The notes under the pieces: model-generated | Seen by the model: the letters and a program-made list of their open reading frames with translations, nothing else | Database searches by the model: none | What the model was told of the DNA's origin: nothing | Part shown: positions 5,192-23,758 of the stretch, one piece after another | How the letters are laid out: each line of letters starts with the position of its first letter | How positions within the stretch are numbered: position 1 is the stretch's first letter | Source: Nitrospirales bacterium | GTDB lineage: Bacteria > Nitrospirota > Nitrospiria > Nitrospirales > UBA8639 | NCBI GenBank assembly: GCA_020027535.1 | Contig: JAHRAK010000135.1 | Span: forward strand, 1-64,000 | DNA length: 64,000 bases | Direction: 5' to 3' | Made by a program: the position numbers and the translations under genes

Positions 5192-6301
5192 ATGAAGATC
5201 GGAATTCCCAAAGAACGCAAAGACCATGAATTTCGGGTCGCCTTAACCCCGGAGGGTGTGGACGAACTCGTCCGGAACGGCCATGAGGTGTGGGTCGAGA
5301 CTCATGCTGGGCAGGGAGTGGATTTTCCTGATGACTTGTATCATGCCGTGGGAGCTCGAATCGCCTCGTCGGAAGAAGAGATCTTCGACCGGGCCGATTT
5401 GGTCCTGAAAGTCAAAGATCCGCTTATAACGGAGGTTGCGTACTTGCAGCCCCGCCACACGTTGTTCACGTTTCTTCATTTGGCTTCTTCCAAGTCTCTG
5501 ACCGAGGCCTTGATGCAATCGGGGAGTACGGCCATTGCGTATGAAACAACGGAAAATGAATGGGGGCATCTGCCGATGTTGCAGCCCATGAGTCAAATTG
5601 CCGGGAAATTGGCGATTCAAATCGGTGCTCATTTTCTGGAGCAGACGCACGGCGGCAAGGGGATTCTCCTGGGCGGCGTCCCGGGGGTGCCCCGGGGACA
5701 CGTCGTGATTCTCGGGGCCGGCGGAGTGAGCTCGGCCGCCGTGGGAGTCGCACTTGGGATCGGGGCGCGAGTCACCGTCATCGGCAATGATATCAATCAA
5801 CTGCAAGGGTTACAGGAGCGCTTCGGGAACAGCCTGACGACCTTGGTCTCTCAAAGACTCACGATTGCAGAGACCGTGAATAGCGCGGATTTGTTGATTG
5901 GCGCCGTCATGATCAAAGGTGCGAAAAGCCCGGTTCTGGTTTCCCGGTCCATGGTGGCGACGATGAAAAAAGGCACGTTAATCATGGATATTGCGGTTGA
6001 CCAGGGAGGATGTATTGAAACCACGAGGCCGACAACGCATGCCGATCCCATTTTCGAAGTGGATGGAGTCCGGCACTATGGCGTGACAAATATTCCCGGT
6101 ATTGTGCCACAAACTTCAACCTATGCCTTGACCCACGCAACTCTACCTTTTATAGTCCGGTTGGCCAACGTGGGAATCGAAGCATCTCTCCGGGCTGATC
6201 CGGGTATTGCCCGAGGCGTAAATATTCGTCATGGGGCGATCACCTATCCGGCTGTCGCCGAGGCGCATGGATTATCCTGTGAGCCACTTGTCCGGAAATA
6301 G
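5192..6301 (+). CDS. ald: Alanine dehydrogenase
   Basis: [23 protein letters not shown]..., [55 protein letters not shown]. Confidence 0.93.
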
Positions 6302-17579: not shown

Positions 17580-17608
17580 TTGACTGATAGGTAGAACTGA
17601 TGTAAAAG
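17580..17608 (+). promoter_or_regulatory. Candidate sigma70 promoter for porin-amt operon
   Basis: TTGACT, 17-nt spacer, TAAAAG (5/6 and 4/6 matches to consensus), just upstream of the leader hairpins. Confidence 0.45.
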
Positions 17609-17616
17609 AGAGAAAC

Positions 17617-17710
17617 TGCTGTGACATCGGTGTCTCGGCGTGTATTATTTATATTCAAAGGACGATGAAGTCCTCAACCACGCAAACAGCGGTTGAGGGC
17701 TTTTTTTTGG
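17617..17710 (+). ncRNA. Candidate attenuator/antiterminator leader RNA upstream of porin-amt operon
   Basis: Hairpin 1 17617-17640 with ATCGGT loop; hairpin 2 AGGAC-GATGAA-GTCCT 17659-17674; its 3' arm overlaps the 5' arm of an intrinsic terminator. Confidence 0.5.
17672..17708 (+). terminator. Intrinsic terminator in leader
   Basis: CCTCAACC-ACGCAAACAGC-GGTTGAGG followed by GC and T8. Confidence 0.8.
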
Positions 17711-17825: not shown

Positions 17826-19034
17826 ATGGTCAAACGAATGATGACTCGAATGGTTTTGTTTGTTTTCAGCATTGCGGTTATTGGGTGGCTTCCCATGCCG
17901 CTTGTGAGTTCCATGGCTCTTGCTGAAGATGACTCATTGGCTAATAAACTGAATCTTTCGCTGTACGGCTATGTGGAAACGTCGTATACGCAAAATTTCA
18001 ACAATCCTTCCACCGGCGTGAACAACAATCGGAGTTTCGACGGCGAGGCGAATTCCTTCCGGCCCAACATGGCGCAACTTGTCCTGGAAAAAGCCGCGAG
18101 TTCGGGAGGGGCGTTGGCCGACCGGGCGGGATTCCGCCTGAAGCTGAACTTCGGGGAAGACGCCAAGTTTACTGGTGGGACCGGTAGCGACGATTTCGAC
18201 TTTCAGGAAGCCTACGTCCAGTACATGCCGGCGGATAATCTCACGTTACAGGCCGGACGCATGAACACGTTGATCGGGTATGAAGTGATCGAAAGCCCGC
18301 TCAACCCCAATTTCTCGCGTTCGTTCCTGTTCGGTATCGGGGAACCGTTCACGGTGACGGGGTTCCGCGCCTCGTTTGATTTCTCGGATTCGGCTTCATT
18401 GGCCGTCAGCGCCATCAATTCTTTTACCGGGCTGCAAGCGGATGACAATAACAGCAAATCCATCGAAGCGCTTCTGTCTCTCGCGCCCATGGATAACCTG
18501 GGCGTTTCGATATTCGGGTTCTGGGGACCTGAGGGCAATACTCGAGGAGAAGCCACTGCGGACCGCATGCAGGTCGGAGGGATCGTCGACGTGCAGGCCA
18601 CCGATCAACTGGAACTCGTGTTGGAGGGCTATTACGGGAACCAGGCCATACCGGGAAGTCCCAACGCCCGGTGGAACGGCGTGGCAGGCTACGCCATTTA
18701 TGACTTCAACGACCAGTGGGGACTCCACGTCCGCGCGGAAGTCTTTGAAGATGCGGCGGGTGCATTCTCGTGCTTCGGGTCGGATTCGGATAATTACGGC
18801 GATTTAGGTAATGCCCATTTGTGTCCTGGCTGGGTCTCGGCCGCACAAGAAGCCGGAACGTTTAATCAGACATTGTGGGAAACCACGTGGACCCTGCAAT
18901 ACAAGCCGACTCCCAATCTCATTACCCGGGCGGAATTCCGTTACGACAAATCCGACAGGGAGACGTTCAGCGATGGCGATGGTGTGAGCGACAGCCAATC
19001 AACGTTGGCGGGAGAAATGATCTTCCTCTTTTAG
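17826..19034 (+). CDS. Outer-membrane beta-barrel porin (Bbp2/OmpL-like)
   Basis: Signal peptide, LNLSLYGYVETSYTQNFNNP...FDFQEAYVQYMPADNLTLQAGRMNTLIGYEVIESPLNPNFSRSFLFG, C-terminal aromatic-rich strand ending IFLF. Confidence 0.82.
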   Translation: MVKRMMTRMVLFVFSIAVIGWLPMPLVSSMALAEDDSLANKLNLSLYGYVETSYTQNFNNPSTGVNNNRSFDGEANSFRPNMAQLVLEKAASSGGALADRAGFRLKLNFGEDAKFTGGTGSDDFDFQEAYVQYMPADNLTLQAGRMNTLIGYEVIESPLNPNFSRSFLFGIGEPFTVTGFRASFDFSDSASLAVSAINSFTGLQADDNNSKSIEALLSLAPMDNLGVSIFGFWGPEGNTRGEATADRMQVGGIVDVQATDQLELVLEGYYGNQAIPGSPNARWNGVAGYAIYDFNDQWGLHVRAEVFEDAAGAFSCFGSDSDNYGDLGNAHLCPGWVSAAQEAGTFNQTLWETTWTLQYKPTPNLITRAEFRYDKSDRETFSDGDGVSDSQSTLAGEMIFLF

Positions 19035-19067
19035 GGAAGTTCTCAAACGCTTATGGGGAGGGAGAAA

Positions 19068-20369
19068 ATGGAAAACAAGAGAATGTCATTCAAGAATATA
19101 AGTATATTATTCTCAGTATTACTACTTTCAATCTTTGCCGGATCGGCCTTGGCTGACGAAGGGGGTGCAGCGATCAGCGCGGGGGACACAGGATGGCTCC
19201 TGACTTCCTCCGCCTTGGTTCTCGCCATGATCATTCCGGGCCTGGCTCTCTTTTACGGAGGGATGGTACGCGATAAAAACGTGCTGAGCACCATGATGTA
19301 CAGTGTCATCTCCGTGTGCGTGGTCAGCGTGGTCTGGGTGTTGTGGGGTTATACCATTGCCTTTGGCACGGACGTGGGCGGCCTCGTGGGCAATTTCGAG
19401 TTTCTGTGGTCGGATAGCGTCGGGCCGGAAGCCTTTCCCGGTACGGCAGTCCCGCATCTTGCCTTCATGGTATTTCAACTCATGTTCGCAGGGATTACGG
19501 TGGCGCTGATCAGCGGGGCCATTGCGGAACGCATGAAGTTCAGCGCGTTCGTGCTATTTGCGATCCTGTGGGTCACCCTGATCTATGCACCGTTGGCCCA
19601 TTGGGTCTGGGGCGGTGGATGGTTGGGCGAATTGGGAGCCCTGGATTTTGCCGGCGGCACCGTCGTGCACATCAGTTCGGGTGTGGCTGCCTTGGCCGCA
19701 GCGTTGGTCCTGGGGAAACGGCACGGCTACGGGTCCGAAAAGATGGCTCCCCATAACCTGCCTTTTACCGTGGTCGGGGCGGCCTTGCTCTGGGTGGGAT
19801 GGTTCGGGTTCAACGCGGGGAGCGCCCTGGCGGCCGACGGGATTGCCGCCGGCGCGTTTGTCGCAACCCAGGTGGCCACGTCCGCCGGTGTGTTGGGGTG
19901 GCTGGTGGTCGAATGGATGAAGAGCGGCAAACCCACGGTCTTGGGCGGGGCCAGCGGCGCCATTGCGGGTTTGGTGGCGATTACGCCCGCGGCGGGGTTT
20001 GTCGGCCCGATTTCCTCGATTCTGATCGGTTTCGGCGCTGGGATCCTGTGTTATTTAGCCGTGGTATGGAAAGCCAAATTCGGCTATGATGATGCTCTTG
20101 ACGTATTGGGCATTCACGGCATCGGAGGAACGTGGGGAGCGATAGCCACGGGACTCTTTGCCAGCGTGGGGGCGACCGGCTTGTTTTTCGGAAATCCGGG
20201 GCAGGTGTTCATTCAGGCCGTGGGTGTGGGAGCCACTTGGGTGTTTTCGTTTGTCGGAACCTTTATTATTTTGAAAGTGTTGGATATGGTTATCGGCCTT
20301 CGCGTCGGGAAGGACGAGGAGATCGTCGGACTTGATCTGAGCGAACATAGCGAACGCGCCTATACCTAG
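19068..20369 (+). CDS. amt: Ammonium transporter (first copy)
   Basis: GLALFYGGMVRDKNVLSTMM, AHWVWGGGWLGELGALDFAGGTVVHISSG, GIHGIGGTWGAIATGLFA. Confidence 0.95.
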   Translation: MENKRMSFKNISILFSVLLLSIFAGSALADEGGAAISAGDTGWLLTSSALVLAMIIPGLALFYGGMVRDKNVLSTMMYSVISVCVVSVVWVLWGYTIAFGTDVGGLVGNFEFLWSDSVGPEAFPGTAVPHLAFMVFQLMFAGITVALISGAIAERMKFSAFVLFAILWVTLIYAPLAHWVWGGGWLGELGALDFAGGTVVHISSGVAALAAALVLGKRHGYGSEKMAPHNLPFTVVGAALLWVGWFGFNAGSALAADGIAAGAFVATQVATSAGVLGWLVVEWMKSGKPTVLGGASGAIAGLVAITPAAGFVGPISSILIGFGAGILCYLAVVWKAKFGYDDALDVLGIHGIGGTWGAIATGLFASVGATGLFFGNPGQVFIQAVGVGATWVFSFVGTFIILKVLDMVIGLRVGKDEEIVGLDLSEHSERAYT

Positions 20370-20388: not shown

Positions 20389-20817
<429 letters not shown>

Positions 20818-20996: not shown

Positions 20997-22295
20997 GTGA
21001 AGCACTCGACCTTCTCATTCATGTGGCTGTTGGTTGTAATTCTGAGCGTCTGTTGCGGGCCGGCAACCGTATGGGCCCAGGACGGGACCCCCGGAGCCAT
21101 TGATACGGGTGATACGGCGTGGATCCTGGTGTCGTCCGCATTCGTCTTGTGTATGACCTTGCCCGGGTTGGCGCTCTTTTATGGCGGGCTTGTCCGGAGC
21201 AAAAACGTACTCGGGACGCTGATGCATACCGCCATCATTCTGTGCTTGATCAGCATCGTGTGGGTCCTGCTCGGCTATACATTGGCGTTCGGCACGGACG
21301 TGGGCGGAGTGATCGGCAGTCTGGAATTTCTTTTCTCCCTGGGCGTGGGACAGGACGCCTATCCCGGCACCGGCATTCCACATTTGGCCTTTATGGTGTT
21401 TCAACTCATGTTCGCCGCCATCACCGTGGCGCTGATCACCGGCAGCTTTGCCGAACGGATGAAATTTACGGCGTTGCTGCTGTTTGCCGTGCTCTGGTCG
21501 GTCCTGATTTATTCGCCTCTGGCCCATTGGGTGTGGGGGGGAGGCTGGCTGGCGGAGATGGGCGCGTTGGACTTTGCCGGAGGGGCCGTCGTGCATATCA
21601 GTTCAGGTTTCGCCGCCCTCGTCTGTGCGCTGATGTTGGGACAACGGAAAGGTTACGGGGTTGAGTCCATGGTGCCACACAACCTTCCCATGACGGTCAT
21701 GGGGACGGGCCTGTTGTGGTTCGGGTGGTTTGGCTTCAACGCGGGGAGTGCCCTGGGCGCCAACGGAGGCGCGGCTTCAGCCTTTGTCGCCACGCATATT
21801 GCGGCTTGCGCCGGCGGGATCAGTTGGATGGGTGCGGAATGGCTACGGACCGGCAAACCAACCATGCTTGGAGTGGCGAGCGGTATCATCGCGGGACTGG
21901 CCACCATCACTCCCGGAGCCGGGTTCGTTTCGCCTTTGGCGGCGTTACTGATCGGCCTCGTGGCCGGCGTCGTCTGTTACGCCGCGGTTGTCCTGAAAAT
22001 CAGACTCGGGTACGATGATTCGCTCGACGTGGTGGCCATTCACGGCGTCGGCGGGTTTACCGGGATCCTGGCAACCGGGATCTTCGCGTCCGTCGGGGCC
22101 CAGGGGTTACTGTACGGGACCCCGGGTCAATTCGTGATTCAGTTCGTGCTGGCCGTTTCCACGCTCGTGTTTGTCGTGGTCGGCACCTTTGTGATTTTGA
22201 AAGTCGTCGACTTGGTGGTCGGCCTTCGAGTGTCGTCTGAGGAGGAAGAAATCGGGCTCGATTTGAGTCAACATAGTGAGCGCGCCTATTCTTGA
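20997..22295 (+). CDS. amt: Ammonium transporter (second copy)
   Basis: GLALFYGGLVRSKNVLGTLMH, AHWVWGGGWLAEMGALDFAGGAVVHISSG, AIHGVGGFTGILATGIFA; GTG start. Confidence 0.95.
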   Translation: MKHSTFSFMWLLVVILSVCCGPATVWAQDGTPGAIDTGDTAWILVSSAFVLCMTLPGLALFYGGLVRSKNVLGTLMHTAIILCLISIVWVLLGYTLAFGTDVGGVIGSLEFLFSLGVGQDAYPGTGIPHLAFMVFQLMFAAITVALITGSFAERMKFTALLLFAVLWSVLIYSPLAHWVWGGGWLAEMGALDFAGGAVVHISSGFAALVCALMLGQRKGYGVESMVPHNLPMTVMGTGLLWFGWFGFNAGSALGANGGAASAFVATHIAACAGGISWMGAEWLRTGKPTMLGVASGIIAGLATITPGAGFVSPLAALLIGLVAGVVCYAAVVLKIRLGYDDSLDVVAIHGVGGFTGILATGIFASVGAQGLLYGTPGQFVIQFVLAVSTLVFVVVGTFVILKVVDLVVGLRVSSEEEEIGLDLSQHSERAYS

Positions 22296-22348: not shown

Positions 22349-23758
22349 ATGACTCCGCGTGAGGTATTGGATTTTGCAAAAAAGAACAAAGTGGAAATGG
22401 TCGATCTTAAATTTGTGGACCTGGTGGGGACGTGGCAACATTTTTCCACCCCGACATCGGAACTGAGTCTCGATTTGTTTAAAGATGGCTCGGGCTTTGA
22501 CGGGTCGTCCATCCGAGGGTGGAAAGCGATTCAGAACAGCGACATGCTGATTTTTCCTGACCCGAACACCGCCCGCTTGGATCCGTTTACCGAACTGCCC
22601 ACTCTCAGCATGGTGTGTAACGTGCAAGATCCGATCACGCGCGCCGTCTATGAGCGTGACCCGCGAGGCGTCGCTCAACGGGCGGAGCAATACCTGAAGA
22701 GTACCAGAATCGGCGATCTTTCCTATTGGGGGCCTGAAGCCGAGTTCTTTATTTTTGATCATGCCAGTTATGACCAAACCAGCAATTCGGGATATTATTT
22801 TATCGACTCCGAGGAGGGTATTTGGAATTCAGGCGAAGACGGTCACAATTTAGGATCACGGCCGCGGCACAAGGAAGGCTATTTCCCCGTCGCGCCAACG
22901 GATACGCAACAGGATATCCGCTCCGAAATGGTCCGGGAAATGGAAAAAGCCGGCATTCGCGTTGAAAAACATCACCACGAAGTGGCAACGGCGGGACAAG
23001 CTGAAATCGATCTTCGCTTTGATACCCTACTGAGTATGGCCGACAAAATGATGATGTATAAGTACATTGTCAAAAACGTGGCACGGCGTCACAACAAAAC
23101 TGCCACGTTTATGCCCAAGCCGTTATTCCAGGATAACGGTACGGGTATGCACACCCATCAAAGTATTTGGAAGGACGGGAAGCCGACGTTCGCCGGCAAG
23201 GAATACGCGGGCGTGTCGAAAACGTGTTTGTATTACATCGGCGGCGTCCTGAAACATGCGCAGGCCCTGGCGGCGTTCACGAATCCCACGACCAATTCCT
23301 ATAAACGGTTGACCCCGGGATTCGAAGCGCCCGTACTGTTGGCGTATTCCAGCCGAAACCGGTCAGCTGGCATTCGGATTCCAATGTATTCTCCCAATCC
23401 GAAGGCCAAACGGATCGAAGTCAGATTTCCCGACCCCTCGGCCAATTTTTATCTGGCGTTCAGTGCGATGCTGATGGCGGGACTCGACGGCATTCAAAAC
23501 AAGATCGATCCCGGGGAGGCCATGGATAAAAACCTCTACGATTTGGCACCGGAAGAAGCCGGTGATATTCCAACCGTTCCCGCAAGTTTGGATGAAGCCC
23601 TCGACAATCTGGAAAACGACTATCAGTTCCTGTTAAAAGGCGGCGTCTTCAGTGAAGACCTGGTGGAAGCCTGGATCGGCTATAAACGGGAAAATGAAGT
23701 TGATCAAGTCAGAATTCGACCCCATCCGCATGAATTCTTTTTGTACTACGATATTTAA
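22349..23758 (+). CDS. glnA: Glutamine synthetase type I
   Basis: [55 protein letters not shown], adenylylation-site motif [11 protein letters not shown]. Confidence 0.96.

Follow-up and report, generated by a model that had tools for sequence, protein, structure and literature searches.

A probable ANTAR-responsive transcription attenuator upstream of a porin and ammonium transporter operon in the order Nitrospirales

Introduction

In the main text of the survey by Ramesh and co-workers from 2012 (PMC3369931), the RNA target of ANTAR proteins is described as a pair of hairpins with six-base loops, each loop carrying G at position 4 and the second hairpin overlapping an intrinsic terminator. 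According to the same text, published targets have A at loop position 1 and mutation of this base lowers induction by EutV; EutV makes no contact with the first loop base (PMC8934654). The linkers between the two hairpins used in PMC8164766 range from 2 to 25 nt. The survey text, moreover, predicts ANTAR-dependent nitrogen regulons in Desulfotomaculum acetoxidans and Pelobacter carbinolicus, and lists genes for PII, ammonium transport and glutamine/glutamate synthesis among the targets (PMC3369931).

The present analysis concerns a leader in a 64,000-nucleotide stretch of DNA (the window), whose source genome is close to Nitrospira sp. bin75 in the order Nitrospirales. Little is understood about how nitrite-oxidising and comammox Nitrospira apportion nitrite or ammonia between energy generation and assimilation. 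The leader is assigned here, with a probability of about 0.9, to the ANTAR-responsive transcription attenuators of the NasR/EutV/AmiR kind, in which a GAF-GAF-ANTAR protein would bring about conditional antitermination.

Results

The leader combines a promoter, two hairpins and an intrinsic terminator (17580–17708):

17580..17608, + strand: sigma-70-type promoter TTGACT-17-TAAAAG, read in the sequence; start predicted near 17615
17618..17639, + strand: P1 (hairpin 1), hexaloop AUCGGU (A1, G4), from sequence and covariation
17659..17674, + strand: P2 (hairpin 2, putative antiterminator), hexaloop GAUGAA (G1, G4), from sequence and pairing in 27/27 leaders
17668..17708, + strand: intrinsic terminator, 12-bp stem (one G-U) followed by T8, from sequence and kept in relatives

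The −35 element TTGACT (17580–17585) and the −10 element TAAAAG (17603–17608) are separated by 17 nt, exactly the letters given for this promoter in an earlier note on the same DNA. P1 reads GCUGUGAC-AUCGGU-GUCUCGGC with a single U-U mismatch; it is present as that note had proposed, its ends lying at 17618 and 17639 instead of 17617 and 17640. P2, AGGAC-GAUGAA-GUCCU, is read directly in the sequence at the coordinates originally given. The terminator stem is formed by AAGUCCUCAACC (17668–17679) and GGUUGAGGGCUU (17691–17702), with the T8 run at 17701–17708; its end at 17708 and the T8 agree with the earlier description, which had let the stem begin four bases too late, at 17672. The segment common to P2 and the terminator is accordingly 17668–17674 and not merely 17672–17674. 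Since this segment comprises the entire 3′ arm of P2 and the last two loop bases, the two structures are mutually exclusive, as had been claimed.

The fold of the leader has a z-score of −3.8, and none of 200 shuffled sequences folded equally well. The free leader favours the terminator, P1 plus terminator reaching −27.6 kcal/mol versus −16.3 kcal/mol for the dual hairpin. In a transcript that ends just after P2 both hairpins fold, which is a requirement for an antiterminator acting during transcription. A generic terminator scan overlooked the leader terminator because its loop exceeds the length limit of the scan.

Comparison with the published ANTAR target reveals two stem-loops with stems of 3 bp or more, six-base loops and a short linker between them, G at position 4 of both loops, overlap of P2 with the terminator, and an ANTAR protein encoded in the same genome. 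At loop position 1, P1 has the A of the published targets, whereas P2 has G. The linker of 20 nt (11–33 nt in relatives) is seemingly longer than that of eutP, yet lies inside the 2–25 nt range of PMC8164766. The class, which the earlier note had left unnamed, is supported as the dual-hexaloop target of ANTAR proteins (PMC8934654, PMC3369931). For a target of this kind the expected effector is a protein and not a free small molecule.

Downstream of the T-run, and 117 nt away from it, the first of five genes begins:

17826..19034, + strand: BBP2-family outer-membrane porin, the first gene past the attenuator (Pfam PF07642, 4e-69)
19053..20369, + strand: ammonium transporter 1 (Pfam PF00909)
20473..20817, + strand: PII signal protein GlnK/GlnB (Pfam PF00543)
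20997..22295, + strand: ammonium transporter 2 (Pfam PF00909)
22349..23758, + strand: glutamine synthetase (Pfam PF00120 and PF03951)

Between the first transporter gene and glnK, a strong terminator-like hairpin of 12 pairs followed by CTTTTT (20406–20435) may tune the expression of the downstream genes. A search of the window for sigma-54 sites gave 29 matches against a shuffle mean of 26, none of them convincing ahead of the operon.

Using the porin gene as bait, the same operon was collected from 80 related genomes. The alignment consists of 27 leaders with both hairpins, the window's own included; one leader (L006 of genome G004) was excluded owing to deletion of the P1 loop. All 27 share promoter, P1, P2 and terminator, and in each of them a TTGAC-(16–18)-T(A/T)nnnn promoter, the same kind as in the window, is situated just upstream of P1. 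The two hairpins with the overlapping terminator are kept through the order Nitrospirales. In P1 both sides change in six of the eight pairs across the 27 sequences, and the covariation score was reached in 0/500 shuffles; P2, in contrast, is paired in every leader but nearly invariant, with a compensatory change at one pair. Such near-invariance is as expected if P2 is constrained by both a protein and the terminator, and the support for P2 is conservation, not covariation.

A covariance model, R1, was built from the aligned leaders including the window's sequence. With this model the element of the window obtains 85 bits (E 5.6e-21), and the next-best match in the window has an E-value of 0.19. 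G occupies position 4 of both loops in 27/27 leaders, a count biased by the P1 and P2 finders, which required this base; R1 contains no such rule, and its matches in other families of the order still have G4. At position 1, P1 has A in 25/27 leaders, and P2 has G in 22/27 and A in 5/27. Both loops begin with A in L025, L028, L029 and the elements of family f3. In the leader of G004 (L170, 6332–6417, contig C7) the P1 hexaloop is deleted and P2, terminator and promoter are kept, making it, judged by its sequence, a candidate for a natural loss of function.

Outside the window, the following features of the same genome are relevant:

G000:C52:14620–15888: GAF-GAF-ANTAR protein, 422 residues, the only ANTAR domain in the genome (E 4e-20)
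L162, 2947–3031: element 2, between the ANTAR gene and nadE-glnD
L161, 2612–2707: element 3, upstream of a sigma-54 activator, followed by two formate/nitrite transporter (FNT) genes and nirA

By alignment, the closest solved ANTAR domains are those of Rv1626 (1s8n), EutV (6wsh) and NasR (4akk). Eleven residues of EutV, among them R142, K143, K149, E160, M172 and R175, contact RNA (PMC8934654). In the GAF-GAF-ANTAR protein seven of these are identical, two are conservatively exchanged (K147R, Y164F) and two differ (R168Q, R177S). Across 30 Nitrospirales ANTAR domains ten of the eleven positions are invariant and the remaining one is N or D; the six residues named above are identical in 30/30, and R and F replace K147 and Y164 in all 30 as well. 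Of the two GAF domains, the first is similar to those of PtsP, the nitrogen phosphotransferase enzyme, and of the regulator Nlh1. GAF domains of this kind respond to glutamine or 2-oxoglutarate, which are therefore the prime ligand candidates.

With presence of the element defined as an R1 match at E≤1e-3, the element was found in 58 of 66 ANTAR-positive but in none of 14 ANTAR-negative genomes (Fisher p 2e-10), in 2/2 versus 0/10 genomes of genus g12 (p 0.015), and together with the ANTAR gene at 16 porin loci of named Nitrospira, against 7 loci lacking both, 1 having just the element and 6 having just ANTAR (p 0.009), all three p-values being indicative only since the genomes are related. 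L155 was excluded from the last set owing to its truncated leader. Among the six ANTAR-only cases, at least GW928 does possess the element, at another of its porin loci (L150); the element-only case is the metagenome-assembled genome G108, in which the ANTAR gene was undetected. In a pattern search that made no use of the model, none of the 7 ANTAR-negative leaders of the named Nitrospira set showed a dual hexaloop upstream of a T-run. In the window's own family, each of 49 genomes has one ANTAR gene and an R1 match at the same threshold. Family f2 has ANTAR genes and no clear R1 match in the genomes searched, and its elements may be diverged or different; in the one genome read (G052, L173), ANTAR, nadE, amt, glnK and glnD are kept together.

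That the presence of the element follows the ANTAR gene also bears on whether the leader could itself bind glutamine, ammonium or nitrate and choose between P2 and terminator without a protein. Mutually exclusive hairpins beside nitrogen genes fit the geometry of such a metabolite riboswitch equally well. However, the only Rfam matches at gathering score in the window are two tRNAs, none of them a riboswitch, and a lax search added three weak, unrelated matches; moreover, only the terminator and two very small hexaloop hairpins are conserved, the linker is variable, and a pocket-like core is missing. A riboswitch is therefore considered very improbable.

The window's genome contains three elements in all, the other two likewise on nitrogen genes and each with its own TTGACA-type promoter. 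The distance from terminator to start codon is about 5 nt at nadE and about 17 nt at the sigma-54 activator, leaving no room for another promoter, so that both genes are reachable only by read-through; in the porin leader of G013 the T-run lies 18 nt from the start. These short distances count against a free-standing small RNA of about 90 nt followed by an operon with a promoter of its own downstream of the terminator. It is true that the strongest terminator comes immediately after a good promoter and that 117 nt separate it from the porin start in the window, but a small RNA alone would also leave unexplained why the arrangement is found in the corresponding position ahead of different operons. 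We regard this explanation as just as improbable as the riboswitch, although the terminated transcript could be a second product. Attenuation by ribosomes translating a leader peptide can be dismissed. An ATG at 17665 does begin a reading frame that crosses the terminator, but this sole ATG, situated inside the P2 loop, is not conserved, being replaced by ACG in L003, L004, L007, L009 and L010, among other relatives, and no conserved run of regulatory codons is present.

The additional elements deviate in detail from the one in the window. The nadE leaders of the window's genus have a clear P2 and a poorly formed P1. The leader of the sigma-54 activator displays a seven-base P2 loop, AAUGAAC, instead of the six-base loops found elsewhere, and this loop is kept in four other relatives of the genus (L169 8402–8497, L191, L192 and L193). 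In family f3 (G050, G075), a single cluster unites the ANTAR, nadE, amt, glnK, glnD, glnA, FNT and nirA genes and includes several elements, tandem ones among them; in G050 it also holds a porin and two amt genes, and G071 has the same gene order up to glnA within the stretch read.

Tandem attenuator pairs occur in other genera as well (L163 3375–3575, L164 1912–2113, L165 3403–3608, L167 8350–8531, L168 2515–2721), those of L163 and L165 preceding FNT-nirA genes. In L161 (4556–6903, G000:C15) the two FNT genes are 82–87% alike, and between them (5573–5761) the C-terminal end of the sigma-54 activator is present a second time, with 87% identity; to judge from these similarities, a tandem duplication has taken place next to the genes for nitrite assimilation.

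Discussion

Conservation, covariation, co-occurrence with ANTAR and recurrence on nitrogen operons all support the earlier proposal of a conditional antiterminator for nitrogen uptake. Under the assignment as an ANTAR-responsive attenuator, RNA polymerase would begin near 17615 and transcribe P1, then P2. With the regulator inactive, the 3′ half of P2 would enter the stronger terminator stem and transcription would stop at the U-tract (17701–17708). A nitrogen-status signal, perhaps glutamine or 2-oxoglutarate sensed through the GAF domains, would activate the sole ANTAR protein of the genome, which would then bind the hexaloops of P1 and P2. The bound P2 would stay closed, no terminator would form, and polymerase would read through into porin-amt-glnK-amt-glnA. 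Its further targets in this genome would be the nadE-glnD element and the sigma-54-activator element beside the nitrite-assimilation genes, both under control of the one ANTAR protein. On sequence grounds, it is thus most likely that the ANTAR protein grips P1 and P2 and prevents early termination; both the binding of RNA by this protein and the direction of its effect, promotion of read-through, are what we infer from the arrangement.

Several observations speak against the ANTAR assignment: G at position 1 of the P2 loop, the exchanges R168Q and R177S, the scant covariation of P2 and the loss of the P1 hexaloop in G004, and in addition the poor P1 of nadE, family f2 without a clear R1 match, G108, and the seemingly long linker between P1 and P2.

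A more far-reaching idea is that one GAF-GAF-ANTAR switch at the RNA level, its GAF domains sensing glutamine or 2-oxoglutarate, might be the main nitrogen-status regulator in Nitrospirales, an order to which nitrite oxidisers and comammox bacteria belong, and jointly induce ammonium uptake, PII, GlnD, glutamine synthetase, glutamine-dependent NAD synthesis and nitrite assimilation. We consider this possible, while leaning slightly against it. One predicted RNA-binding regulator with defined nitrogen targets represents a directly testable circuit, for which the order offers natural experiments: lineages in which ANTAR gene and element are both absent, and a species whose P1 loop has been lost.

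A literature search for ANTAR together with Nitrospira or Nitrospirae found no paper linking them in the library consulted, and the main text of PMC3369931 names no Nitrospira. The Nitrospirales leader nevertheless belongs to a known class, since ANTAR elements before PII, amt and glutamine-synthesis genes are known elsewhere. What seems new is that the element is present through the order, that its regulator has two GAF domains, and that the multi-operon regulon is of this size and conserved.

Among its closest counterparts is the NasR/nasF leader of Klebsiella oxytoca, with which the Nitrospirales leader shares a one-component ANTAR regulator, two G4 hexaloop hairpins, overlap of the second hairpin with an intrinsic terminator, and a nitrogen-assimilation operon. 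NasR senses through a nitrate-binding NIT domain, whereas the Nitrospirales sensor has two GAF domains; furthermore, the Nitrospirales system spans several operons including ammonium uptake, and its P2 loop starts with G. The eut leaders controlled by EutV in Enterococcus faecalis are alike in the dual-hexaloop RNA, the terminator overlap and several elements per genome, and most RNA-contacting residues of EutV are common to the Nitrospirales ANTAR. In contrast, EutV is a receiver-domain response regulator with the kinase EutW, acting on ethanolamine genes, the eut hexaloops begin with A, unlike P2 of the window, and the eut linker seems shorter. Finally, the regulons of D. acetoxidans and P. 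carbinolicus, as outlined in the main text of PMC3369931, resemble the present one in having multiple elements per genome on nitrogen genes, but differ from the Nitrospirales regulon, which lies in another phylum and in which a single GAF-GAF-ANTAR gene co-occurs and co-localises with the elements across one order.
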